From Jiangella muralis (GTDB taxonomy: Bacteria > Actinomycetota > Actinomycetes > Jiangellales > Jiangellaceae), in NCBI RefSeq assembly GCF_001270745.1, contig NZ_KQ434755.1, positions 166,542-230,541 of the forward strand: 64,000 bases of DNA. Reading direction: 5' to 3'. Made by a program: the position numbers and the translations under genes. Positions 40,760 through 64,000 of the stretch are shown here, in pieces; position 1 is the stretch's first letter; each line of letters opens with the position of its first letter. Under the pieces are notes generated by a model, which saw nothing but the letters and a program-made list of their open reading frames with translations, was not told the DNA's origin and did not search any database.

Positions 40760-40810
40760 GACGGCACACGCGTGCCACCCGACCCGGACCGACGATCGAC
40801 GAGGTGTCCC

Positions 40811-41827
40811 ATGAAGACGCTGCCCGAGCTCCATCGAGCTCTTGCCACGCCGAGCGCGGCACTGGTCGAGGATCTGCGGGACACCCCGGGTGACATCGTC
40901 GTGCTCGGTGCGGCCGGGAAGCTCGGGCCGAGCCTCGTCATGCTCGCGCTGCGCGCTCTGGCCGAGGCCGGCTCGGCGGCGAGGGTGCACGCCGTCTCGC
41001 GTTTCGGCGACTCCGCGGTGGCCGACGAGCTGCGCGCCGCGGGTGCGCACGTCATCGTCGCGGACATCGCCGGCGACGACGCCCTGGCCGCGCTGCCCGA
41101 CGCGGAGAACGTGATCCTCCTCGTCGGGGCGAAGTTCGGCACGCAGGGCAACGAGGCCGCCATGTGGGCGACCAACACCTACCTGCCCGGACGGGTGGCC
41201 GAGCGCTACCGGTCGGCGCGGATCGTGGCGCTGTCCACCGGCAACGTGTACCCGCTGGTGGCCACGGCATCAGGCGGCGCCAGTGAGGCCGACCCGGTGG
41301 GGCCGGTGGGTGAGTACGCGATGTCGTGTCTCGGGCGCGAACGCGTCCTCGCGCACGCCGCCCGCGAGCACGGAACGCCGCTCGCGCTGATCCGGCTCAA
41401 CTACGCGGTGGAGCCGCGCTACGGCATCCTCGTCGACCTCGGCCGGCAGATCCTCGCCGGCGAGCCGGTCGACGTCACCACCGGGCACGTCAACCTCGTC
41501 TGGCAGGGCTATGCGAACGAGGTGATCCTGCGGGCGTTGCGCCATGCCGCCAGCCCCGAGTTCGTCCTCAATCTCACCGGTCCCGAGACGCTGTCCACCC
41601 GCCGGCTGGCCGGGAAGCTCGGCGCCGCGTTGGGCCGCGACGTCACCATCACCGGGCAGGAGGCGCCGACCGCACTGCTGGCCGACGCCGCACGATGCCA
41701 CGCGCTCTTCGGCTACCCGGCGCGGAGCCCCGACGACCTGGTGCGTGACGTCGCCGAGTGGCTGCTCGCCGGGGGAACGGTGCTCGACAGACCCACGAAA
41801 TTCCAGGTGCGGGACGGGAGATTCTGA
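40811..41827 (+). CDS. NAD-dependent epimerase/dehydratase family protein
   Basis: Extended SDR. The Rossmann motif appears as VVLGAAGKLGPSLVMLALRA at about residues 30-49, and the active-site region is ALSTGNVYPLV then GEYAMSCLGRERV, where the usual YxxxK is replaced by YAMSCLGRE, so the catalytic Lys seems absent. Comparable variants occur in uronate-dehydrogenase-like and hypothetical epimerases. 338 residues. First gene of an operon with a DapA-like lyase, NagB and NagA. Acts on a sugar or sugar acid, unspecified. Confidence 0.82.
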   Translation: MKTLPELHRALATPSAALVEDLRDTPGDIVVLGAAGKLGPSLVMLALRALAEAGSAARVHAVSRFGDSAVADELRAAGAHVIVADIAGDDALAALPDAENVILLVGAKFGTQGNEAAMWATNTYLPGRVAERYRSARIVALSTGNVYPLVATASGGASEADPVGPVGEYAMSCLGRERVLAHAAREHGTPLALIRLNYAVEPRYGILVDLGRQILAGEPVDVTTGHVNLVWQGYANEVILRALRHAASPEFVLNLTGPETLSTRRLAGKLGAALGRDVTITGQEAPTALLADAARCHALFGYPARSPDDLVRDVAEWLLAGGTVLDRPTKFQVRDGRF

Positions 41828-42861
41828 TGCCACCGTTGGAGACCTTCGCTGCCGGGACGGTGATTCCCGCCATGCCGCTGGCGCTCACCGAGGAGTTGTC
41901 CTTCGACGAGCGGCGGCAGCGTGCGCTGGTGCGGTACTACCTCGCCGCGGGCGCGGGCGGACTGGCCGCGGCCGTGCACTCCACCCAGTTCGCGATCCAC
42001 ACGACGCACGCCGGCCTGCTGCGGCCCGTCCTGGAGCTGGTGGCCGACACCGCCAGGAAGGAGGGCTCGCCGGACCTCGTGCTGGTGGCCGGGGTGGTCG
42101 GCGAGACCGATCAGGCGGTCGCCGAGGCGGAGCTCGCGGCGTCGCTCGGCTACGACGCGGTGCTCCTCGCCCCGTACGGCGTCGGCGACCGGAGCGAGGA
42201 CGCGCTCCTCGACCGGGCCCGCAAGGTGGGCGACGTGCTGCCGGTCATCGGGTTCGCGCTGCAGCCCGCGGTCGGCGGCCGGCGGCACTCCCGCGGCTAC
42301 TGGACCCGGCTGGCCGACATCCCCAGCGTCCTCGGCGTCAAGGCGGCGCCGTTCGACCGGTACGCCACGCTGGACATCGTGAGCGGCCTCGCCGCCTCGT
42401 CCAGGCGCGACGCCGTGACGCTCTACACCGGCAACGACGACCACATCGTCGGCGACCTGGTCGCGTCCTTCGCGCACGCCGACGGCAGCCGCACCCGCTT
42501 CGCCGGCGGGCTGCTCGGTCAATGGTCGGTCTGGACCCGCGGCGCCGTCGAGACGCTCGAGCTGGCCCGGCTCGCCCGGGACGGCGACCACGCGGCGCGG
42601 CTGGCCCTGGACGGCATCGACGGCCCGCTGACCGACGCCAACGGCGCGATCTTCGATGCTTCAGGCGGCTTCGCCGGGTGTATCCCCGGCATCCATGAGG
42701 TACTACGCCGGCAAGGGCTGCTGGCGGGAACGTGGTGCCTCGACCCGCACGAACGGCTCTCGCCCGGCCAGCTCGACGAGATCGACCGGATCTGGGCCGC
42801 TCATCCGCAGTTGCGCGACGACGAGTTCGTCGCCGCGCACCTCGATGAGTGGCTCGCCTGA
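41827..42861 (+). CDS. Dihydrodipicolinate synthase family (DapA/NanA-like) lyase
   Basis: TIM-barrel class I aldolase or dehydratase, 344 residues. The Schiff-base Lys is in SVLGVKAAPFDRY and the phosphate/carboxylate-binding-type segment is YYLAAGAGGLAAAVHSTQF. The strand that normally carries the catalytic Tyr reads VIGFALQPAVGG, lacking it, so the reaction probably differs from DapA or NanA. Start overlaps the previous stop (TGATG). In context it may cleave a 2-keto sugar acid or an N-acylated ulosonate. Confidence 0.8.
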   Translation: MPPLETFAAGTVIPAMPLALTEELSFDERRQRALVRYYLAAGAGGLAAAVHSTQFAIHTTHAGLLRPVLELVADTARKEGSPDLVLVAGVVGETDQAVAEAELAASLGYDAVLLAPYGVGDRSEDALLDRARKVGDVLPVIGFALQPAVGGRRHSRGYWTRLADIPSVLGVKAAPFDRYATLDIVSGLAASSRRDAVTLYTGNDDHIVGDLVASFAHADGSRTRFAGGLLGQWSVWTRGAVETLELARLARDGDHAARLALDGIDGPLTDANGAIFDASGGFAGCIPGIHEVLRRQGLLAGTWCLDPHERLSPGQLDEIDRIWAAHPQLRDDEFVAAHLDEWLA

Positions 42862-42906: not shown

Positions 42907-43662
42907 ATGACGACGATCCCCGCCACCGACGGCGTCCCCGTCACCATCTCCCGCAGCTCCGAGGAAGCCGGCGCGTCCGCGGCGCGCGCGGCCGCCGGGG
43001 CCATCCTCGCCGCCATCGCGGCCTCGGGCCGGGCCCGGGTGATCTTCGCCAGCGCGCCGTCGCAGGAGGCGATGCTGCGAGGGCTGGCCGGCGACGCCCG
43101 GATCGACTGGTCGCGCGTTCACGGCCTGCACATGGACGAGTACATCGGCATCGATCCGGCCGACCCGCGGGCGTTCGGCGCCTGGCTGGCCGAGCGCCTC
43201 CCGGTGGACCGGTTCGCGTCGTTCGCCCGCATCGATCCGTCCGGGGACGCCGAGGCGGAGGCGCGCCGCTACGAGGCGGTGGTGCGCGCCGAGCCCGTCG
43301 ACCTGACCTGCCTCGGCTTCGGCGTCAACGGGCACATCGCCTTCAACGAGCCCGGCAGCGACCTCGACGACACCCGGTTCGTCCGGACCGTCGAGCTGGC
43401 CCCGGCGTCGCGCCAGCAGCAGGTGACCGACGGGCTGTTCGGACGGGTCGACGACGTGCCCGGCCGGGCGATCACGCTGACCGTCCCGGCGCTGCTGAGC
43501 GCCCGCACCCTGGTCGCGACCGTGCTCGGGCGGCAGAAGGCGGCCGCGGTCTCGGCCGCGCTGACCGGCCCGATCTCCGCGGCCTGCCCGGCCAGCGCGA
43601 TCCGCCGGCACCTGGCCGCGACGGTGCATCTGGATGCCGCGGCCGCCAGCGGGATCGACTGA
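42907..43662 (+). CDS. nagB: Glucosamine-6-phosphate deaminase family protein
   Basis: Converts GlcN-6-P to fructose-6-P and ammonia. NagB motifs: LHMDEYIGI with the proton-relay Asp and LGFGVNGHIAFNEPG with the ring-opening His, then a conserved C-terminal helix. 251 residues. It lies directly before a GlcNAc-6-P deacetylase, the normal partner step. Confidence in the exact substrate is moderate because isomerase-domain relatives act on other 6-phosphosugars. Confidence 0.87.
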   Translation: MTTIPATDGVPVTISRSSEEAGASAARAAAGAILAAIAASGRARVIFASAPSQEAMLRGLAGDARIDWSRVHGLHMDEYIGIDPADPRAFGAWLAERLPVDRFASFARIDPSGDAEAEARRYEAVVRAEPVDLTCLGFGVNGHIAFNEPGSDLDDTRFVRTVELAPASRQQQVTDGLFGRVDDVPGRAITLTVPALLSARTLVATVLGRQKAAAVSAALTGPISAACPASAIRRHLAATVHLDAAAASGID

Positions 43663-43666
43663 GCCG

Positions 43667-44695
43667 GTGACGCCGCCGTCCGGTCGCCTGCCCGGGCTCG
43701 TCGACCTCCAGGTCAACGGCTTCAGCGGCATCGACCTCAATCGCGACGACCTCGCCGCCGACGACGTCGTCGCGCTGACGCGGGAGCTCTGGGCGGCCGG
43801 CGTCACCCGGTACCTGCCGACGCTGATCACCGGGAGCGAGGCGCGGCTGACGGCGGCCATGCGTGCCGTCGCCGCCGCCCGCCGGGCCGGCCCGCTGATC
43901 GCGCACAGCATCGCCGGAATCCACGTCGAGGGCCCGCACATCTCCGCGGCCGACGGCGCCCGGGGCGCGCACGACCCGGCCTGGATCAGGCCACCGGACA
44001 CCGCCGAGCTGGACCGGTGGATCGCGGCGAGCGAAGGGCTGGTGCGGATCGTCACGGTCGCGCCGGAGACAGACGGCGCCGCCGCCTACATCGCGCACGC
44101 CGTGCGGCGCGGCGTCACCGTCTCGCTCGGTCACGCCGCGCCCGGCGCCGCCGACATCCGGGCCGCGGCCGGCCACGGCGCCACCCTCAGCACCCACCTC
44201 GGCAACGGGTGCGCGCCCGCCGTGCCGCGCCACCCCAACCACCTGTGGGCCCAGTTGGCCGAGGACCGGCTCACGGCGATGTTCATCGCCGACGGTCATC
44301 ACCTGCCCGCCGACACGCTGACCGCGATGATCCGGGCGAAGACGCCGGCGCGATCCGTGCTGGTCAGCGATGCCGCGCCGCTCGCCGGATCACCGCCGGG
44401 AACCTACGCCACGAGCGTCGGCGGCCGGGTCACCGTCGAGCCGGGCGGCGCGCTGCGGCTGGCCGGGACGTCCCTGCTGGCCGGATCGGGTGCGAGCCTG
44501 CTCGACTGCGTCCGCTGGGCCGCCGGGCAGCTGCCGTTCGACCGCGCCGCCCTGTGGGCGATGGCGAGCACCACGCCGGCCCGCCTGCTCGGCGGGCACG
44601 ACGCGAGCGGCGACAGCGTGGTGGTCGAGGCCGACGGCGACGCCTGGGCGGCCGCCCGCACCGAGGTCACCGGCACGGTCGTGCACGGACGCTGA
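43667..44695 (+). CDS. nagA: N-acetylglucosamine-6-phosphate deacetylase
   Basis: Removes acetate from GlcNAc-6-P. Amidohydrolase with GLVDLQVNGFSGIDLN, metal Glu in GIHVEGPHIS, LGHAAPGAADI, STHLGNGCAP and catalytic Asp in VLVSDAAPLAG. GTG start 4 bases after nagB. 342 residues, slightly short because the N-terminal beta-sandwich part is trimmed, so the protein starts almost at the barrel (GRLPGLVDLQ). Ends 4 bases before the convergent ManD gene. Confidence 0.9.
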   Translation: MTPPSGRLPGLVDLQVNGFSGIDLNRDDLAADDVVALTRELWAAGVTRYLPTLITGSEARLTAAMRAVAAARRAGPLIAHSIAGIHVEGPHISAADGARGAHDPAWIRPPDTAELDRWIAASEGLVRIVTVAPETDGAAAYIAHAVRRGVTVSLGHAAPGAADIRAAAGHGATLSTHLGNGCAPAVPRHPNHLWAQLAEDRLTAMFIADGHHLPADTLTAMIRAKTPARSVLVSDAAPLAGSPPGTYATSVGGRVTVEPGGALRLAGTSLLAGSGASLLDCVRWAAGQLPFDRAALWAMASTTPARLLGGHDASGDSVVVEADGDAWAAARTEVTGTVVHGR

Positions 44696-53818: not shown

Positions 53819-55078
53819 ATGGGAAAGAAGAAGGTCATACGGTATGCGGCAGTGGTTGCCGGTCTGACGCTGTTCGTTGCCGGCTGCGGCGGCGACGACG
53901 ACGCGGGCACAGCGTCGGACGATCCCACCACGGTGGAGGGGAACGTCCTGTTCTGGACGTATCCCATCGGCGTGAGCGGCGAGGACGGCTTCTGGGACCC
54001 GATCGTCGCCGAGTTCAACGAGCAGTACCCGAACGTCGAGATCGAGGTCGTCGTCCAGCCCTTCCAGAAGCGCGAAGAGACGCTGGTCACGGCCATCGCG
54101 GGGAACCAGGCGCCTGACGTCGTCTACCTGAACCCCAACTACATCCCGCGCTTCGGCGGCGACGGGCTACTCGAGCCCGTCGGCGACCTCGTCGACGACG
54201 AGTTCAACGACGCGGCGGTCGACTCCATGAGCTGGGAGGGCGAGCTCTACTCCGTCCCGCTCCTCATGCAGATCTTCCAGTCGGTCTGCAACACGGCGGT
54301 CCTGGACGCCGCCGGCGTCGACACGTGTCCGGAGACCTGGGATCAGCTGAGGGAGATCGCGCCCGCGGTGAAGGACGCGGGGTTCTACCCGACGCACTAC
54401 GAGGGCGCGCTCGGCGTGACGCTCACCCAGACGTTCTACCCGTACCTGTGGCAGGCCGGCGGGGAGGTTCTGAACGAGGACGGCACGGAGGCGGCGTTCA
54501 ACAGCCCGGAAGGGATCAAGGCGCTGGAGTTCCTCACCGAGCTCGCCGGCAACGAGTGGATCGCCGCGCGCAGCCTCACGGTGCTGGACCCGTTCGAGCA
54601 GACCCCGTCGGGCAAGGGCGAGACCGCCTACCTGCCCTCCACGAGCCTCGCGTCGCTGCGGGGCGTCGGGCTGGACGAGACCCTCGAGGTCGTACCCCCG
54701 TTGAAGGACGTCGAGCAGGTGGCCGCCGGTTCGGTCGGTGGCCTGTCGATCATGTCGTCCAGCGAGGTGAAACCAGCCGCCCGGGCATGGGTGGAGTTCA
54801 TGACGTCGGCGGAGCAGATGGGCTCCTTCGTCCACGCGACCGGCTACTTCCCGGCGCGCGACACCATCACCGGGTTGTTCGACGACGATCCGAAGTTCGC
54901 CGACGGCCAGCAGTACCTGCACCTGGTGCGGGCCGGTATCGGCCATCCCGAGGAACTGGCCATCACGGACCTCATCAGCCCGCACATCCAGGCCGCGCTG
55001 CTGGGCCGGGCCAGCCCGGAAGACGCGCTCGCGGCGGCGGAGAGCGAAGTCAACGACCTGCTGGCACGGCGGGGCTGA
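53819..55078 (+). CDS. ABC transporter substrate-binding lipoprotein
   Basis: Sugar-type (family 1) solute-binding lipoprotein of 419 residues. Lipobox FVAGC follows a KKK N-terminus and hydrophobic segment. NVLFWTYPIGVSGEDGFWDPIVAEFNEQYP opens the mature domain, and APDVVYLNPNYIPRF and AGSVGGLSIMSSS are typical strands. It should bind the oligosaccharide or amino-sugar derivative used by the cluster. Expressed from promoter D. Confidence 0.92.
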   Translation: MGKKKVIRYAAVVAGLTLFVAGCGGDDDAGTASDDPTTVEGNVLFWTYPIGVSGEDGFWDPIVAEFNEQYPNVEIEVVVQPFQKREETLVTAIAGNQAPDVVYLNPNYIPRFGGDGLLEPVGDLVDDEFNDAAVDSMSWEGELYSVPLLMQIFQSVCNTAVLDAAGVDTCPETWDQLREIAPAVKDAGFYPTHYEGALGVTLTQTFYPYLWQAGGEVLNEDGTEAAFNSPEGIKALEFLTELAGNEWIAARSLTVLDPFEQTPSGKGETAYLPSTSLASLRGVGLDETLEVVPPLKDVEQVAAGSVGGLSIMSSSEVKPAARAWVEFMTSAEQMGSFVHATGYFPARDTITGLFDDDPKFADGQQYLHLVRAGIGHPEELAITDLISPHIQAALLGRASPEDALAAAESEVNDLLARRG

Positions 55079-55157: not shown

Positions 55158-56072
55158 ATGACCGTCGCAGACCTGCGGCGCACCCGGTCCGGTACGACCC
55201 CGCAACGCTGGTGGAAGGCCAGGGGCGCGATCATCGCGTACGCCTTCATCGCCCCCTACGTCGTGCTCTTCCTGGCGTTCAGGATCGGGCCGGCGATCTT
55301 CGGAACATTCCTCAGCCTCGCGGAGTACGGCCTGGCCGGCGACATCACCTTCGTCGGCCTGGACAACTTCTCCAGGCTGTTCAACGACCCGATCTTCTGG
55401 AACGCGCTCAAGGTGACGGTGCTGTACACCGTCATCGCGATTCCGCTGACCGTGGCGATCTCCATCGGCATGGCCGTGCTCTGCAACAGGACGTTGCGCG
55501 GGATGAGCGCCTATCGTGCTGTGTTCTTCCTGCCGGTCGTCACCAGCAGCGTGATGTCGGGCATCGTGTGGGTCTGGATCCTCGGCGAGGAGGGCCCGCT
55601 CAACTGGCTCCTCACGTCGGTCGGCCTGCCCGCGGTGCCCTGGCTGAATCACGACATCGTCGTGCTGCTCTCGCTGGCCGTCGTCAGCGCGTGGACGCAC
55701 TTCGGCTACGACATGCTCATCCTGCTCGCCGGGATGCTGGCCATTCCGACCGAGTACTACGAGGCGGCGGAGGTCGACGGCGCCAACGCGTGGGAGCGGT
55801 TCAGGCACATCACCCTGCCGTTGTTGAAGCCGGCCCTCTTCTTCGTCATCGTGCTCGAGATCATCCGCTCCTTCCAGGTCTTCGACACGATCTACGTGAT
55901 GACCGGCGGCGGTCCGGTCCGCTCCAGCTATTCGCTGACGTTCATGATCTACGACCAGGGATTCGGCTACTTCGAGTTCGGCTACGCGAGCGCCGCCGGT
56001 GTCGTGCTCCTGGTCATCACCCTGGCGGTGTCGCTGGTCCAGCGGCGGCTGATGCGAGGAGGCACGACGTGA
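55158..56072 (+). CDS. ABC transporter permease (MalF/UgpA type)
   Basis: 304 residues with six hydrophobic helices. The EAA loop reads EYYEAAEVDGANAWERFRHITLPLLKPAL. AGAGGAGGG site before the ATG. Its stop overlaps the next permease start. As in the 33 kb importer, no ATPase gene is adjacent. Confidence 0.92.
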   Translation: MTVADLRRTRSGTTPQRWWKARGAIIAYAFIAPYVVLFLAFRIGPAIFGTFLSLAEYGLAGDITFVGLDNFSRLFNDPIFWNALKVTVLYTVIAIPLTVAISIGMAVLCNRTLRGMSAYRAVFFLPVVTSSVMSGIVWVWILGEEGPLNWLLTSVGLPAVPWLNHDIVVLLSLAVVSAWTHFGYDMLILLAGMLAIPTEYYEAAEVDGANAWERFRHITLPLLKPALFFVIVLEIIRSFQVFDTIYVMTGGGPVRSSYSLTFMIYDQGFGYFEFGYASAAGVVLLVITLAVSLVQRRLMRGGTT

Positions 56073-56968
56073 GTGCGCCGGTGAATCTCGACGAGACGCT
56101 GGAGCGGTCGACGGCACAGGCCCCGCGGGCCACGAGCGCGGGCCGGGCCGGACGCCGTGGCCGCCGGCGGCGTCCGCGCTGGATCCATGTGCCGCTGGTC
56201 GTCCTGGCGTTCGCGACCGCGTTCCCGTTCTACGCCATGGTGGTGCTGGCGCTGCAGCCGGGCAAGCCCATCGACCTGCCCGGATCGCTGCTGCCGTCGA
56301 ACATCTCGTTCGACGCGTTCAGTGCGGCGCTCGGCAGCGACCGGACGGCGGGGTGGGCCTGGAACTCGGCCGTGTACTCCATCGTGTCGGTCGTGCTGGT
56401 GCTGCTGCTGGCGTCGATGGCCGGCTACGCGTTCGCCAAGAAGCGCTTCTTCGGCCGTGAGGTGATCTTCTGGGTCTTCGTCGCGACGATGATGATCCCG
56501 GGGCACCTGACCCTGATTCCGCTGTTCATCACGATCTCGGAGCTGAACGGCCTCGACACCATGTGGGGACTGATCGTCCCGACGCTGGCCAACGCGCAGG
56601 CGATGTTCCTGATGCGGCAGTTCATTCAGGAGATTCCCGACGAGCTCATCGATGCCGCACGCATCGACGGCGCCGGCGAGCTGCGCATCTACTGGTCGAT
56701 CATCCTGCCGCAGACCAAGCCGATCATGGCGACCCTCGGGACGTTCGTCTTCCTGTGGCACTGGAACGACTTCCTCTGGCCGCTGGTGTCCATGCGCAGC
56801 CCGGAGAACTACGTGTTGACGGTCGGGCTGAACAGCATCCAGGAACAGAACGTCCCGCTCGCCACCGTGATGGCGGCCGCCGCCGTCACGTTCGTTCCCA
56901 CGTTGCTCGTGTTCTTGTTCCTGCAACGGTTCTTCGTCCGCGGCGTGATGATGAGCGGCCTGAAGTGA
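56069..56968 (+). CDS. ABC transporter permease (MalG/UgpE type)
   Basis: 299 residues, GTG start overlapping the previous stop. A basic, Arg-rich N-terminal tail precedes six helices. The EAA loop is ELIDAARIDGAGELRIYWSIILPQTKPIM. The C-terminus FFVRGVMMSGLK is standard for this subunit. Confidence 0.92.
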   Translation: MSAPVNLDETLERSTAQAPRATSAGRAGRRGRRRRPRWIHVPLVVLAFATAFPFYAMVVLALQPGKPIDLPGSLLPSNISFDAFSAALGSDRTAGWAWNSAVYSIVSVVLVLLLASMAGYAFAKKRFFGREVIFWVFVATMMIPGHLTLIPLFITISELNGLDTMWGLIVPTLANAQAMFLMRQFIQEIPDELIDAARIDGAGELRIYWSIILPQTKPIMATLGTFVFLWHWNDFLWPLVSMRSPENYVLTVGLNSIQEQNVPLATVMAAAAVTFVPTLLVFLFLQRFFVRGVMMSGLK

Positions 56969-58016: not shown

Positions 58017-60911
58017 TCAGTCCACCACGCACTGTCCGCTGCGGGGACCGGTCACGGTGTTCGATCCGGCCTGCTCGATGATGGCCGGGCTGTTGCCGGT
58101 ACAGGCCAGTGGGCCGGTGATCTCGTTGTCGGCGAAGTCGACCTGGTCGGCGGCGTTGCCGGCCAGTTCGACGGGGCCGGTGACGGTGTTGCCGCTGAAC
58201 CGGAACCGGCCGGTGGTTCCGGCGATGGCGACCGGGCCGTTCAGCGTGGAGCCGGTGACCTCGACGGTGCCGGCCGAGCTGACGCGGAGCGGGCCGGTGA
58301 TCGTGGCGTCGGTGGCGTGCAGGCTGCCGCCGCCGCTGATGGTCACCGGTCCGTCGACCGTCGCACCGGTCACGCAGACGGTGCTGCCGTCGGCGGTCAG
58401 CGGTGCCGCGAGGTCCTCGTCGACGGTGACATCGCACCGCACTGCCGGTGCGGCCGGGGTCCAGCGCAGCAGCTCGGAGCCGGTCGCGTAGTAGTACCGG
58501 CCCTGGGCGTCGATGGCGAGGTTGGCGGTGTTGGTGGCGATGATCTCCATGTCCAGCGTCAGGGGATCGACCTCGAAGACCCGGCCGCTCGTGGATCCCA
58601 CCAGCATGCCGTTGTGCCAGTACAGCTCCCGCCCCCGGACATAGGCGGCGCTGTCGTCGGTGTTGAAGTACCGCCGCTGGGCGACGACCTGCCTCGTCTC
58701 GGGGTCGAACTTGAAGATCGAGTTCGCGGTCAGCCCCCACAGGTACCCGTCGTCGTCGAAGACCAGCGCCGAGACGTGGCCGTCGCCCGGCACCGGGACG
58801 GTGTCGAACACGACCTCGCCGGTGGCCGGGTCGAAGACGAACAGCTTGCCCTCGGTCTCGGTCGGTTCCTGACCAAGACCGCCGGTGATGCCGGAACCGC
58901 CGTAGAGCAGGCCGTCGCGGTACTGGAGCGCGTAGATCGACTGGTTCTGGATGAGGTTGTCGTGGACCTCCAGGGTCATCGACTCCGGGTCGAGGATCGC
59001 CAGCGCTCCGCCGAGCCGCGCCGGAATGGGGAAGGTGCCGACGGCCACCTTGTCGCCCATGCTGGTCATCGCGATCGGCCGGTCCTGCTCGTGGCCGACG
59101 TAGATTCTCGGCCGCGGGTTGACACCCGGCTCGAGCGGCTGCGACGGGTCGTAGACGTTGATGCCGGCATTGGTGTAGGTGCCGTAGATCAGCAGGCCGT
59201 CGTGCGAGTGGAAGTCCATGATCTGCCCACTCAGCGGCAGCGAGGTCGTCTCGTCGGTCTCCGGGTCGAGGTGGACGAAGCCGGCACCGCCGAGATACAC
59301 GTCGCCGGCCGGGCCGGCGCCGATGGAGCGGATGAGGATGGCGGCGCCCAGCGCCTCGGTCGGCCGTGTGCCGCACTCGCCGCTGACCGGATCGTAGGTG
59401 TAGAACGTGCCGTCGGCGCGCGCGGTGACGAGTGTCTTGTCGGAACCGCCGTCGTTGGGCAGCGGCACCGGGTTCCACATGCGGGCGGCGCCGCCGTCGA
59501 GGTCGAAGCAGGTGGACCGCTCGGTTCCGGTGTCGAGGTCGTAGGCGACCGAGCCGCCACCCATCAGCGGAACCAGGACCTCGCGGTGGGTCTCTGCCCC
59601 ACTGACGGTCTCGAACACCGGGGAGACGCCGAGCCCGACGGCTTCCTGGCTGATCGTGTCGATCCAGGTGGAGGTCTCGAGGTCGTAGACGTGCAGCCGG
59701 TTCGACGGGTAGTACCGGACGAACAGCAGGTTCTCCCGGACGTCGACGTCGTAGGCGAACTCCTGGCCGGTCTCGGAGTCGGGGTTCGGGATGATCGTCA
59801 CCTGGTCGGTGGTCAGGTCGACGACGCCGACGGCGGCCGTCGAGCCGAGGCCGACGTAGGCCGTCTCACCGACGACGTCCATGCTGCGCACGTACTTGTT
59901 GCCGGCCTGGACCGTGCCGTGGTCGTGCCAGGTGCCGTCAGCGGGGTCGTAGGAGAAGACCTTGCCGTCGGGGTACGAGCCCCACACGATCCGGCCGGAC
60001 TCGGTGACGCCGGTGGCCCAGAGGTTCGTCTGGCCGAACGGCTTCTCCTTGATCAGTTCGAACGACAGGTCGTCGGGGTCGAACCGCCACACGGCGCCCA
60101 TGACGTCGCTGCCGACATAGATCGACCGGTCCGGCGCGGTGGCGTACGACCACGCCTGCCAGATGTTGTCCATCTCCTTGGACGCCAGCAGCTCGCCGGT
60201 GTTGATGTCGACGACACTGGCGATGGACGGCTCGCCCTTGGCGATCACCAGCCCGATGGCCCGGCCGGACGCGTCGGTGGTGTAGCCGATGCCGGCCGAC
60301 ACGAGATTGGTGATCGGTGTGCCCAGGCTCTCATGGGTGCCGCGGAACGGGGCCGGTTCGAACCGGACGTTGTCCACGTAGGCGTCGACGGTGGCGGTGC
60401 TGCCGCTGTTCATCACCACCTGGGCCTGCGTGGCGCCGTCCGGCACCGTGGTCGTCCAGGACTGCGGGGACCACGCGTCGAGGTCGGGGGACCACCGCAC
60501 GTTGTCGATGCCGACCCGCTCGCCCGCGCCGTCCAGGAAGTACATCGTGGAGTTGATCGTTCCGGACGTGACGTACAGATCGAGGCGGACCCGGTACTCC
60601 TCCCCGGCGGTGACGGGCACGGCAGCCGAGACGACGGCGCCGCCGTACTGCGTGTCCTCGTCGACGAAGTGCAGACTCCGGGAGCCGTCAGAGGCGCGCT
60701 CGTCGGTCACCTCGACCCGGACGGTGGGACGCAGCCACTGGGGTGACCAGCCCTCGATCTCTCCGCCGGCGCCGACGGCAGCCTCGAAGCTGGGATTGAC
60801 CAGCGGGTTGCCGGCCGCCTCGTCCGCCGCCGCGGTGGGCAGGGCAGCCAGCAGGCCACCGATGGCGACACTCGCCAGCATGGCTGGCACAGCACGTGTC
60901 GACAGGGTCAT
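58017..60911 (-). CDS. Large secreted propeller-solenoid protein, copy 1
   Basis: 964 residues, function unknown. Signal peptide (AMLASVAIGGLLAALPTAAA). Residues about 35-175 form a carbohydrate-binding-module-like jelly roll (NPLVNPSFEAAVG, IEGW, DAYVDNVRFEPAPF). From about 185 to 830 there are many propeller-like repeats with GYTTDASGRAIG, SIYVGSDVMGAVWRFDPDD, LFVFDPATGEVVFDTVPVPG and LYWHNGMLVGSTSGRVFEVDP. The last about 110 residues are five turns of about 20 residues with TVDGPV, TITGPL, TLNGPV, TVTGPV and EITGPL, ending TVTGPRSGQC. No catalytic motif I can name. Last gene of the leftward operon; starts one base after copy 2 ends. Confidence 0.85.
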   Translation of the reverse strand: MTLSTRAVPAMLASVAIGGLLAALPTAAADEAAGNPLVNPSFEAAVGAGGEIEGWSPQWLRPTVRVEVTDERASDGSRSLHFVDEDTQYGGAVVSAAVPVTAGEEYRVRLDLYVTSGTINSTMYFLDGAGERVGIDNVRWSPDLDAWSPQSWTTTVPDGATQAQVVMNSGSTATVDAYVDNVRFEPAPFRGTHESLGTPITNLVSAGIGYTTDASGRAIGLVIAKGEPSIASVVDINTGELLASKEMDNIWQAWSYATAPDRSIYVGSDVMGAVWRFDPDDLSFELIKEKPFGQTNLWATGVTESGRIVWGSYPDGKVFSYDPADGTWHDHGTVQAGNKYVRSMDVVGETAYVGLGSTAAVGVVDLTTDQVTIIPNPDSETGQEFAYDVDVRENLLFVRYYPSNRLHVYDLETSTWIDTISQEAVGLGVSPVFETVSGAETHREVLVPLMGGGSVAYDLDTGTERSTCFDLDGGAARMWNPVPLPNDGGSDKTLVTARADGTFYTYDPVSGECGTRPTEALGAAILIRSIGAGPAGDVYLGGAGFVHLDPETDETTSLPLSGQIMDFHSHDGLLIYGTYTNAGINVYDPSQPLEPGVNPRPRIYVGHEQDRPIAMTSMGDKVAVGTFPIPARLGGALAILDPESMTLEVHDNLIQNQSIYALQYRDGLLYGGSGITGGLGQEPTETEGKLFVFDPATGEVVFDTVPVPGDGHVSALVFDDDGYLWGLTANSIFKFDPETRQVVAQRRYFNTDDSAAYVRGRELYWHNGMLVGSTSGRVFEVDPLTLDMEIIATNTANLAIDAQGRYYYATGSELLRWTPAAPAVRCDVTVDEDLAAPLTADGSTVCVTGATVDGPVTISGGGSLHATDATITGPLRVSSAGTVEVTGSTLNGPVAIAGTTGRFRFSGNTVTGPVELAGNAADQVDFADNEITGPLACTGNSPAIIEQAGSNTVTGPRSGQCVVD

Positions 60912-60912
60912 G

Positions 60913-63816
60913 TCACTCCATCCCCAGCTGGCACTGCCCGTCGCGCGGCCCGGTCACGGTGTTCGAGCCGGCCTGGCCAACGAGGTAGGCGTTGTTGCCG
61001 GTGCAGGCGAGCGGTCCGGTGATCTCGTTCGCGGTGAAGCTGAACTCGTCGGCGGCGTTGCCGGTCAGGCGCACCGGTCCGCTGATCGTGTTGCCGGTGA
61101 ATCGGAGGCGGGTGCTGGTGCCGCCGATGTCGACCGGGCCACTCAGCGTGGATCCGGTGACGTCGAGCGTGCCGGCCGAGGTGACGCTGAGCGGGCCGGC
61201 GATCGTGGCGTCGGTGACGTGCAGGCTGCCGCCGCCGGACACGTTGACCGGTCCGTCGACCGTCACGCCGTTCACACAGACGGTGCTGCCGTCGGCGGTC
61301 AGCGGTGCTGCGCGGTCCTCGTCGACGGTGACGTCGCACCGCACCTCGGCCGCGGCGGGGGTCCAGCGCAGCAGCTCCGACGAGCGGCCGTAGTAGTACC
61401 GGCCGTCCCGATCGATGGCGAGGTTGGCGGTGTTGGTGGCGATGATCTCCATGTCCAGCGTGTCCGGGTCCACCTCGAAGACCCGCCCGCTGGTCGAGCC
61501 GACCAGCATGCCGTTGTGCCAGTAGAGTTCCCGGCCTCGGACGTAGGCTCGGCTGTCGTCGGTGTTGAAGTACCGCCGCTGCGCGACGACCTCGCGGGTG
61601 GCAGGGTCGAACTTGAAGATCGAGTTTGCCGTCACGCCCCAGAGGTAGCCCTCGTCGTCGAAGACCAGTCCGGACACGTGGCCGTCGCCAGGCACCGGAA
61701 CCGTGTCGAACACGACTTCCTCGGTGTCGGGGTCGAAGATGAACAGCTTGCCCTCGGTTTCAGTGGGCACCTGCCCAAGACCGCCGGTGATGCCGGAGCC
61801 GCCGTAGAGCAGACCGTCGCGGTACTGCAGGGCGTAGATCGACTGGTTGTGGATGATGTTGTCGTACACCTCCATCGTCATCGCCTGCGGGTCGAGGATC
61901 GCGAGCGCACCGCCCAGCCGGGCCGGCACCGGGAAGGTGCCGATGGCCACCTTGTCGTCCATGCTGGTCATCGCGATGGGCCGGTCCTGCTGGTGTCCGA
62001 CCCGCAGCCTCGGCCGCGGGTTGACGCCGGACTCCCAGGGGAGCGACGGGTCGTAGACGTCGATGCCCGCGCCGGTGTAGGTGCCGTAGATCAGTAGGCC
62101 GTCGTGCGAGTGGAAGTCCATGATCTGACCGCTCAACGGCAGGCTGGTGGCCTCGCCGGTGTCCGGGTCGATGTGCGCGAACGCGGCGCCGCCGGTGTAG
62201 ATGTCACCCGCTGGGCCGGTGCCGATGGTGCGCATCGTGGTCGCCGCGCCGAGCGCGTCGGTGGGCAGCATCTTGCAGGAGTCGGTGGCCGGGTCGAAGG
62301 CGAAGAACTCGCCGTTGTTGCCGCGCGCCGTCACCAGCACCTGGTCGGACATGCCGTCGATCTGCATCGGCACGTCGCTCCAGTTCCGCACCGCCGAGCC
62401 GCCGATGTCGAAGCAGGTGGGCCGGGTCGCCCCGGTGTCCAGGTCATAGGCCAGCGACTTGCCGCCGACGAGCGGGAACATCACCTCGCGGTGGGTCACG
62501 CCGTCGCGCACGGTCTCGAACTCCGGCGAGACGTTCAGTCCGACGACGGGCTGCTCGATCTCGTCCACCCAGGTGCCGGTGGTCAGGTCGTAGACGTGCA
62601 GGATGCTCGACGGCCGGTAGCGGACGAACATGAGGTTGCCGCGGATGTCGATGTCGTCGACGAACTCCTGGTTCGTCTCCGACGGCGGGTTCGGCAGGAT
62701 GGTCACCACGTCGGTGGTCAGGTCGACCTTGGCCAGGACGGCGGCGGTGGCGCCGAGGCCGACGTACGCGGTCTCGCCGACGATGTCGATGACCCGGGCG
62801 TACTTGTTGCCGGGGTTGACGGTGCCGTGGTCGTGCCAGCTGCCGTCGGTGGGGTTGTAGGAGAAGAGCTTGCCGTCGGGGTACGAGCCCCACACGACGC
62901 GGCCCGACTCGGTCATGCCGATGCCCCAGAGGTTCGTCTGGCCGTACGGCTTCTCGTTCAGCAGCTCGAAGGTCATGGCGTCGGGGTCGAACCGGTAGAT
63001 GGCACCGACGAAGTCGCTGCCGATGTAGATGCTGCGGTCGTCGGCGGTCACGTAGGTCCAGGCCTGGCCGATCTTGGGCATCTCCTGGCTGTGCAGCAGT
63101 TCGCCGGTGTTGATGTCCACCACGCTCGCGACCGACGGCTCGCCCTTGGCGATCACCACTCCGATGGCCCGGCCGGAGGCGTCGGTGGTGTAGCCGATGC
63201 CAGCCGACACGAGATCGGTCAGTGGCCGGCCGAGGCTCTCCTCGGTCCCGCGGAACGGCGCCGGCTCGAACCGGACGTTGTCCACGTAGGCGTCGACGGT
63301 CGCGGTGCTGCCGCTGTTCATCACCACCTGGGCCTGCGTGGCGCCCGCGGGCACGGTGGTCACCCAGGTCTGCGGGGACCACGCGTTGAGCACGGAGTCC
63401 CAGCTGTAGGTGTCGATGCCGACTCGGGTCCCGGCGCTGTCCAGGTAGTACACGGTGGAGTTCATGGTCCCGGACGTGACGTAGAGGTCGAGCCGGATGC
63501 GGTACTCCTCACCGGCGACGGCCGGTACCGCGGCGGAGGCGATGGCGCCGCCGAGCCTCGTGTCCGGGTCGGCGAAGTGCAGGCTCTGGGCGCCGTGGGA
63601 GGCGCGTTCGCCGGTCACCTCGGCGGTCCCCGCGGGCGGCAGCCACAACGTCGACCAGCCTTCGATCGCACCGTCCGCACCCACCGGTGCCTCGAAGCTG
63701 GGGTTGACCAGCGGATTGCTGCCGTCTTCCGCCGACGCCGCGGGCGCGGCGGCGGCCGGTACGGCCGCCATCAGCCCGGCCGCCAGGACCGAGACGCCTC
63801 GTCTTCTCCACGTCAT
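60913..63816 (-). CDS. Large secreted propeller-solenoid protein, copy 2
   Basis: 967 residues with the same architecture and very high similarity to copy 1 throughout. Signal peptide (VSVLAAGLMAAVPAAAAPAASA), jelly roll starting NPLVNPSFEAPVG, propeller with SIYIGSDFVGAIYRFDPDA and LFIFDPDTEEVVFDTVPVPG, and C-terminal turns TVDGPV, TIAGPL, TLSGPV, TISGPV, EITGPL, then NTVTGPRDGQC. Differences concentrate in the signal peptide and in the middle of the propeller (for example the region around NNGEFFAFDPATDSC). ATG at 63816 after AAGGAG. Recent tandem duplication is likely. Function unknown; export and the binding-type domain suggest polysaccharide recognition or cleavage. Confidence 0.85.
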   Translation of the reverse strand: MTWRRRGVSVLAAGLMAAVPAAAAPAASAEDGSNPLVNPSFEAPVGADGAIEGWSTLWLPPAGTAEVTGERASHGAQSLHFADPDTRLGGAIASAAVPAVAGEEYRIRLDLYVTSGTMNSTVYYLDSAGTRVGIDTYSWDSVLNAWSPQTWVTTVPAGATQAQVVMNSGSTATVDAYVDNVRFEPAPFRGTEESLGRPLTDLVSAGIGYTTDASGRAIGVVIAKGEPSVASVVDINTGELLHSQEMPKIGQAWTYVTADDRSIYIGSDFVGAIYRFDPDAMTFELLNEKPYGQTNLWGIGMTESGRVVWGSYPDGKLFSYNPTDGSWHDHGTVNPGNKYARVIDIVGETAYVGLGATAAVLAKVDLTTDVVTILPNPPSETNQEFVDDIDIRGNLMFVRYRPSSILHVYDLTTGTWVDEIEQPVVGLNVSPEFETVRDGVTHREVMFPLVGGKSLAYDLDTGATRPTCFDIGGSAVRNWSDVPMQIDGMSDQVLVTARGNNGEFFAFDPATDSCKMLPTDALGAATTMRTIGTGPAGDIYTGGAAFAHIDPDTGEATSLPLSGQIMDFHSHDGLLIYGTYTGAGIDVYDPSLPWESGVNPRPRLRVGHQQDRPIAMTSMDDKVAIGTFPVPARLGGALAILDPQAMTMEVYDNIIHNQSIYALQYRDGLLYGGSGITGGLGQVPTETEGKLFIFDPDTEEVVFDTVPVPGDGHVSGLVFDDEGYLWGVTANSIFKFDPATREVVAQRRYFNTDDSRAYVRGRELYWHNGMLVGSTSGRVFEVDPDTLDMEIIATNTANLAIDRDGRYYYGRSSELLRWTPAAAEVRCDVTVDEDRAAPLTADGSTVCVNGVTVDGPVNVSGGGSLHVTDATIAGPLSVTSAGTLDVTGSTLSGPVDIGGTSTRLRFTGNTISGPVRLTGNAADEFSFTANEITGPLACTGNNAYLVGQAGSNTVTGPRDGQCQLGME

Positions 63817-63853
63817 GTGGCACTCCTTCGCAAGTGGTGGCAGCGGGATGTCG

Positions 63854-64000
63854 TCAGAGGCCGGCGCATTGGCCGGTGCGGGCGCCGGTGACGGTGTTGG
63901 GTTCGCCGTCGCTGACCGGTGCGGGGTCGTTGCCGGTGCAGGCGAGGGCCCCGGTGATGGTGTTGCCGCCGACGACGGGTGGCGCCGTGGTGGTGTTGCC
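63854..64000 (-). CDS. C-terminus of a third secreted solenoid protein, cut by the right edge
   Basis: The last 48 codons of a leftward gene end with NTITGALACTGNDPAPV and NTVTGARTGQCAGL. This matches the final solenoid turn and Cys-containing cap of copies 1 and 2 (LACTGN...NTVTGPRxGQC). It ends 37 bases before copy 2 starts, so at least three such genes form one operon. Nothing upstream is visible. Confidence 0.78.
   Translation of the reverse strand, partial: GNTTTAPPVVGGNTITGALACTGNDPAPVSDGEPNTVTGARTGQCAGL

Follow-up and report, generated by a model that had tools for sequence, protein, structure and literature searches.

A four-gene array of secreted propeller proteins in Jiangella muralis with a plausible role in carbohydrate breakdown

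What is the function of the large secreted proteins encoded side by side at the end of a 64,000-nucleotide stretch of Jiangella muralis DNA (contig NZ_KQ434755.1; hereafter the window), and do they belong to any described family? A preliminary description of the window (G000:C6:166542-230541, where G000 denotes the J. muralis genome itself) had suggested polysaccharide lyases or binding proteins acting before sugar uptake. The present analysis indicates that the array is real, unclassified and carbohydrate-linked, and that an enzymatic function is plausible. With a confidence somewhat short of even, we favour the view that these proteins are secreted, modular and carbohydrate-active, and that they form a double-propeller family as yet unclassified; they would cleave an acidic glycan, most likely as Tyr/Arg lyases.

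Layout of the array

As previously described, copies 1 (58017..60911, minus strand, 964 aa) and 2 (60913..63816, minus strand, 967 aa) are full length, closely similar (75% identity) and separated by a single base; their GC content at third codon positions is approximately 0.93. The third C-terminus noticed at the edge of the window (63854..64000, minus strand) is that of copy 3, whose complete gene spans window positions 63854-66280 (L013:10854-13280, 808 aa; window position = L013 position + 53000). At least three copies had been predicted, and reading beyond 64 kb added both the remainder of copy 3 and a copy 4 (window 66318-69269, L013:13318-16269, minus strand, 983 aa with the chosen ATG), which brings the array to four genes. 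The gaps between copies 2 and 3 and between copies 3 and 4 are 37 bases each. Copies 3 and 4 are 74% identical, identities between the two pairs are 32–34%, and on this comparison copies 3 and 4 form a subfamily separate from that of copies 1 and 2.

Copy 1 consists of a signal peptide (signal peptides were assessed by eye and hydropathy), a CBM_4_9-like module (residues 36-172), a 14-bladed propeller (residues 188-820) and a Cys-capped GPV solenoid (residues 826-961; 58029..58436, minus strand). No whole-protein family assignment was obtained for copies 1 and 2, in line with the earlier remark that this layout matches no named family, and the NCBIfam scan of these copies returned only matches below cut-off. 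The carbohydrate-binding N-terminus ascribed to each copy was found in copies 1, 2 and 4, and is missing from copy 3. Within the array, PF02018 (CBM_4_9) exceeded its gathering cut-off only in copy 1 (27.7 versus 25.9 bits); it fell below the cut-off in copy 4 (22.2 bits) and was not listed for copy 2 at E≤1. In 4 of the 10 homologues scanned (L049, L051, L054 and L065, all from Bacillota), a CBM_4_9 domain above cut-off occurs instead at the C-terminus, accompanied in two by FIMAH and in two by Big-type domains. A hyaluronate-lyase-type domain was considered and rejected, its match being below its cut-off.

Three homologues (L055:9956-11848, L059:9989-11914 and L061:9920-11950) have no hydrophobic signal segment back to the upstream stop codon (3/66 rows; four rows with missing starts were not judged). 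The signal-less homologue of L061 adjoins a secreted copy behind an ABC importer.

The 14-bladed propeller and its conserved residues

The propeller region of copy 2 (61354..63258, minus strand; residues 187-821) was examined in an AlphaFold model of the whole protein (m5b9849ba5ee6; 27-row alignment; mean pLDDT 79.9), in which the signal peptide and the carbohydrate-binding module (CBM) region scored low, while pLDDT blocks across residues 191-820 averaged 91 (lowest blocks 56 and 78). The model of a single-domain homologue (L056; 22-row alignment) reached a mean pLDDT of 91.5 and a pTM of 0.80. The propeller, rightly described beforehand as long, comprises approximately 630 residues, and the strand order in the models gives 14 blades, the last of which is closed by the N-terminal strand. 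We take these for a pair of seven-bladed propellers, given that the listed fold matches are largely double-propeller proteins.

Among the best 60 of 195 matches in the Protein Data Bank (PDB) profile search, designed propellers (as we take the first-ranked matches to be) and the sensor domains of hybrid two-component systems (HTCS) came first. In a Foldseek search with the single-domain model (best 50 listed), HTCS sensor domains led by E-value at a TM-score of about 0.3, and chains of the small-subunit (SSU) processome gave the highest score among the fold matches listed for this model (TMq 0.56). The latter, and also AIP1 (1nr0), are eukaryotic WD40 double propellers that serve as intracellular scaffolds; they likewise carry two propellers per chain, at 10–14% identity. 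With copy 2 as the sole query, a sequence search of the PDB found nothing under E 0.06, and the viral fold library yielded matches at the level of the propeller only.

The conserved residues were identified by aligning propellers from three phyla: 67 clustered sequences, of which 66 were profile-matched, 57 were full length and 53 remained after removal of identical ones. Three residues are invariant in these 53 sequences (copy 2 numbering), namely Y339, Y580 and R612. They are followed by Y264 (98%), Q610 (97%), Q564 (89%), Q658 (87%) and S659 (84%); position 674 is Thr in 91% of the sequences and Ser in copy 2. No acidic residue is invariant: E688 reaches 79%, the most conserved Asp positions, D737 and D695, 91% each, and these two and most other conserved Asp residues lie, as judged by eye, within recurring blade motifs such as xDP. 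No His column exceeds a weighted frequency of 0.6. The codons of the conserved polar residues of blades 9-11 (Q564, Y580, Q610, R612, Q658, S659 and S674) lie within 61795..62127 (minus strand). According to DSSP strand limits, the inner strand starts at Q564 in blade 9, at Q610/R612 in blade 10 and at Q658/S659 in blade 11, and the second strand ends at Y580 in blade 9 and at position 674 in blade 11, an order that would place the residues of this patch on one face of propeller 2. These patterns lend no support to a classical acid pair or to a His site of the PL24/PL25/PL42 type; they are compatible with a Tyr/Arg site or with one that binds carboxylates.

These data bear first on membership of a described propeller family of polysaccharide lyases (PL) or glycoside hydrolases (GH), i.e. 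PL22, PL24, PL25, PL42/GH145 or GH74. The propeller fold, secretion and the sugar-gene context would all suit such an assignment. GH74 xyloglucanases are secreted proteins with tandem seven-bladed propellers in one chain and a catalytic Asp pair in the cleft between the two propellers; in the array family no Asp is invariant. The Pfam models that we take to represent these families were matched neither by copies 1 and 2 (E≤1) nor by ten homologues (E≤0.001), and no PL or GH chain appeared among the best 60 of 195 PDB profile matches or the best 50 of each of two fold lists (copy 2 and the single-domain homologue). PL24, PL25 and PL42 resemble the array proteins in their propeller fold, acidic-glycan substrates and the presence of Tyr and Arg in their sites. 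They differ in having a single seven-bladed propeller and a catalytic His, as set out in PMC8377490, as opposed to 14 blades, an invariant Arg612 and no conserved His; because the array family has no conserved His column, the His/Arg site of the known propeller lyases appears to be absent from it. Thus, the PL22/PL24/PL25 type named in the preliminary description was not borne out by family models or blade number, nor by a conserved His, and we regard membership of any of these described families as very improbable.

A stronger competitor is non-catalytic glycan capture, in which the double propeller would bind oligosaccharides in the manner of an HTCS sensor and hand them to the ABC importer, or hold a polymer at the cell. 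The HTCS periplasmic domains (BT4663, PDB 4a2l/4a2m; BT4673, 3ott) are built of the same type of repeat, form double propellers, and are extracytoplasmic and glycan-related; among the matches listed, they are the nearest natural solved relatives both by profile and by Foldseek E-value. The array proteins are only 13–14% identical to them in structural alignment and carry a CBM and a solenoid instead of signalling domains (no Pfam domain of a histidine kinase or response regulator was found in copies 1 and 2 at E≤1 or in copies 3 and 4 at E≤0.01), and the TM-score of about 0.3 implies that the propellers are packed differently. Capture would also agree with the lack of an invariant acidic residue and of a frequent His column, and with the lipobox-like N-termini seen by eye in two of the three copies of Rufibacter. 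On the other hand, a protein that only binds would have no need of an added CBM at either end, Tyr and Arg are strictly kept in sequences often only about 30% identical, and the homologues that have no signal peptide are easier to understand as enzymes whose substrates are oligosaccharides already taken up than as proteins for capture at the surface. On balance, we consider capture unlikely, though it deserves serious weight.

A third proposal, an extracellular oxidoreductase with a propeller similar to those of pyrroloquinoline quinone (PQQ) or sugar dehydrogenases, could draw on two relatives in which PQQ_2 exceeds its cut-off (L015:16482-18755 and L049:14884-18168), an SGL match below cut-off, and a glucose/sorbosone-dehydrogenase gene near the Rufibacter copies. 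The PQQ_2 matches, however, span only part of the propeller and none was found in copies 1-4, so that such oxidation of a glycan is scarcely to be expected.

Linkage to c3 and c4 and a possible pathway

The window also contains a gene related to N-acetylneuraminate lyase/DHDPS (c4; 41758..42861, plus strand; start of the open reading frame (ORF) unrefined), preceded by an SDR/epimerase-like gene (c3; 40808..41827, plus strand). The c4 protein matched 8u8w (N-acetylneuraminate lyase/DHDPS) in a profile search with an E-value of 6e-9, and a scan of three members found PF00701 in one. In common with this superfamily, from which it is divergent, it has an invariant Lys (Lys178, alignment numbering), which is taken for the Schiff-base Lys.

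In a set of 60 genomes including J. muralis, 20 of the 26 c4 genes have a propeller gene no more than 20 kb away, against 0.56 expected; the count used 105 of the listed propeller matches, all of at least 85 bits, and all 26 c4 matches, the four weak hits in other families (G028, G038, G058 and G059) being excluded. In this set c4 is carried by 20 genomes, and exactly these have strong propeller matches. Of 72,556 plasmid records, 11 contain a propeller, 20 contain c4 and 10 contain both, within 8 kb in nine of these ten. Seven of the linked plasmid cases are from Streptomyces with c4 proteins 96–100% identical, which reduces the plasmid evidence to three independent cases. This further linkage was found on plasmids of Mesobacillus, Paenibacillus and Streptomyces, and in Rufibacter (Bacteroidota) c3, c4 and three propeller genes are consecutive. 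The c3-c4 pair is present in 11, sugar ABC permease genes in 20 and binding-protein genes in 18 of 38 propeller stretches, a sample in which many stretches are short and some overlap (L013/window, L016/L017, and L058/L077 on the same contig); the pair occurs in those of Actinomycetota, Bacillota and Bacteroidota.

Adhesion, matrix or signalling proteins with merely coincidental sugar genes would explain why the solenoid is common to unrelated secreted proteins, propellers being versatile binders. Such a role is hard to reconcile with the c4 linkage and its repetition on plasmids of Bacillota and Streptomyces, and we deem it improbable. The CBM fusions, the sugar ABC genes beside the propellers and the strong c3-c4 link favour an extracellular carbohydrate role, and it is this part of the original lyase-or-binding-protein proposal that stands.

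If the propellers cleave an acidic glycan, the Tyr/Arg/Gln patch of propeller 2 (Q564, Y580, Q610, R612, Q658 and S659) would bind a uronate- or ulosonate-containing chain, with Tyr/Arg beta-elimination a more likely route of cleavage than acid hydrolysis. Uptake of the resulting fragments would fall to the sugar ABC importer encoded next to the array, and their catabolism to c4, c3 and the products of nearby Gfo/Idh/MocA genes. We infer the acidic substrate, catalysis, the lyase chemistry and the flow into a c3-c4 pathway from these combined features.

The c4 loci devoid of propellers offer a further view of this pathway. In six such plasmid loci, a c3 homologue was found within two genes of c4 (profile-confirmed in 6/6), and genes of transporters (tricarboxylate-type, solute-binding-protein-dependent ABC, sugar ABC or MFS) are nearby in five; the stretch from a Planctomycete has none. 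One locus holds tricarboxylate-transporter and mandelate-racemase genes, which hints at an acid as the substrate of the pathway.

Several observations weigh against glycan cleavage coupled to c3 and c4. No search result names any family member as an enzyme, and the catalytic residues proposed are putative. Apart from designed propellers, the closest solved relatives listed by profile are HTCS sensors and other propellers; the fold matches are largely double propellers and, to our knowledge, most of these are not known as enzymes. The genomes behind the 20/26 count are related, and the cases are therefore not independent. Six of the 26 c4 genes are away from propellers, and a J. muralis copy (C2:360846) lies 274 kb from the nearest one on its contig. 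Of the 20 plasmid records with c4, 10 lack a propeller (two of these ten are under 1.2 kb), and in a sample of 296 genomes of the phylum, where scoring covered some of the first-look candidates, the three propeller matches outside J. muralis (two partial) and the single other c4 match are in different genomes. In c3 (alignment A5), Tyr169 of the YxxxK motif is kept, whereas the Lys position is Cys173 in 10/10 rows; in six further homologues the motif is YxxxC in four and was not found in two. Lacking the SDR catalytic Lys, c3 has an uncertain role in the pathway. The only solved relative (E≤1e-5) of the enolase-superfamily protein encoded upstream of the array is L-Ala-D/L-Glu epimerase, which gives no support for sugar acids as its substrates. 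Finally, glycosidase-family neighbours (Bac_rhamnosid in two loci, and also Glyco_hydro_4, Glyco_hydro_31 and alpha-amylase) speak for glycan breakdown by their presence but vary between loci, so that no single polymer is favoured.

The widest claim is that of a new carbohydrate-active family with a 7+7 propeller and a His-free Tyr/Arg/Gln site for acidic glycans, secreted as well as signal-less, present in at least three bacterial phyla and coupled to an undescribed c3-c4 sugar-acid pathway; we put this forward as somewhat doubtful. Should the propellers prove enzymatic, they would represent a new propeller architecture and active site for glycan breakdown, they would provide a handle on the substrate of the conserved, unassigned c3-c4 pair (found in Actinomycetota, Bacillota, Bacteroidota, Pseudomonadota and Planctomycetota), and the expansion of the family to about 12 copies in J. 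muralis, and also that in its relatives, would be explained.

Neighbouring genes, family spread and the solenoid

The sugar importer and catabolic cluster said to converge on the array is present. It includes genes for a sugar ABC solute-binding protein (53819..55078), permeases 1 (55158..56072) and 2 (56069..56968; start approximate, from a by-eye reading of the ORF ending at 56968) and, as its last member, a carbon-nitrogen hydrolase (PF00795; 56994..57947), all on the plus strand. The c3-c4 cluster continues with a glucosamine-6-phosphate-isomerase-family gene (42907..43662, plus strand) and an amidohydrolase-family gene (43634..44695, plus strand) that is NagA-like by eye. Directly upstream of copy 4, on the same strand, lies a DUF4127 gene (L013:16407-17909; Pfam E-value 7e-121), on which no paper was found in the open-licence part of PubMed Central (PMC). 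It is preceded by the enolase-superfamily gene (MR_MLE_C) and an AGE-type (GlcNAc-2-epimerase-family) gene, from which a LacI gene diverges; the AGE assignment was made through cluster c10, to which this gene belongs and of which another member (L080:10070-11425) matches PF07221. Strand and spacing indicate that the array probably forms the end of a minus-strand operon of seven genes.

Neighbouring genes were also considered as a guide to the substrate; this was given up, as rhamnosidase, GH4, GH31, GH13, glucuronyl-esterase-like, NagA/NagB-like and AGE genes vary by locus. A sialic-acid-type pathway, suggested by c4 together with AGE, NagB-like and ROK genes in several loci, is attractive, but c4 is too divergent (E about 1e-9) for a substrate to be named. 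Eight propeller stretches share a protein of about 408 aa (cluster c8; L016:9581-10807, L052:1660-2889 and six more), two members of which were scanned and gave no Pfam match.

The J. muralis genome gave 21 matches to the family, corresponding to 12 propeller genes after removal of solenoid-only matches and double counts, and the genomes of relatives gave up to 17 (solenoid-only matches included). In the 60-genome set, matches were found in 24 genomes, strong in 20 and weak in four of other taxonomic families. The strong matches are in 20 of the 22 genomes of family f1, and the two genomes without them are 75–81% complete. Adjacent propeller genes on the same strand occur in 16 of these 20 genomes and sugar ABC genes recur; the tandem arrangement and sugar-gene setting proposed for the array thus extend to its relatives. 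A scan of GTDB gave 17 loci, including those of Jiangella ureilytica, Bacillus and its relatives, Paenibacillus, a Propionibacteriaceae strain and Rufibacter. In the 296-genome sample, four genomes matched at 1e-20 (J. muralis included; two matches partial), which suggests that the family is patchy in Actinomycetota. Among the 11 plasmid records with a propeller are one chromosome-sized record of Nonomuraea and one from the haloarchaeon Natribaculum. Overall, the family ranges over Bacillota, Bacteroidota, other Actinomycetota and one haloarchaeon. Within open-licence PMC, no paper was found that joins Jiangella with beta-propellers, or that deals with 14-bladed propellers or a secreted polysaccharide lyase with two seven-bladed propellers.

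In a maximum-likelihood tree of the 53 propellers, copies 1 and 2 and copies 3 and 4 occupy different, well-supported places. Proteins of two other genomes of the genus (G003 and G010) cluster with copies 3 and 4, which indicates that the duplication behind this pair predates those splits. Another genome, G004, carries the same four-gene array, with a first pair 93% and 74% identical to copy 2. G010 also has four genes, every member of which is 30–33% identical to copy 2; the copy 1/2 pair is here common only to J. muralis and G004.

The C-terminal solenoid has a distribution of its own. In copy 2 (60931..61338, minus strand; residues 827-962), the GPV/GPL/GPR repeats are spaced by 19–22 residues, in agreement with the expected spacing of about 20. 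Instead of two capping Cys residues, as had been supposed, all four copies of the array have four per solenoid, a pair 20 residues apart at its start and a pair 24 residues apart at its end (C827, C847, C938 and C962 in copy 2). The module shows invariant Cys and glycine residues over 12 J. muralis proteins, among which are one M64 peptidase and four BNR proteins of sialidase-like type, two of these encoded in tandem. The solenoid had no Pfam match in the scans made, and its profile gave a single weak match in the PDB, a phage tail spike (E 0.008). It was detected in 21 of the 296 genomes of the phylum Actinomycetota (J. muralis included), in some cases as small stand-alone proteins that appear to be secreted. 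Being common to sialidase-like and peptidase proteins, it is an accessory module and does not define the propeller family; it is a separately mobile secreted module. The J. muralis solenoid proteins outside the array are encoded at loci L081-L084 (contigs C1, C14 and C23). At one of these (L082:3716-8231), two tandem sialidase-like BNR_2 proteins both carry the solenoid, so that this genome has more than one case of propeller proteins duplicated in tandem.

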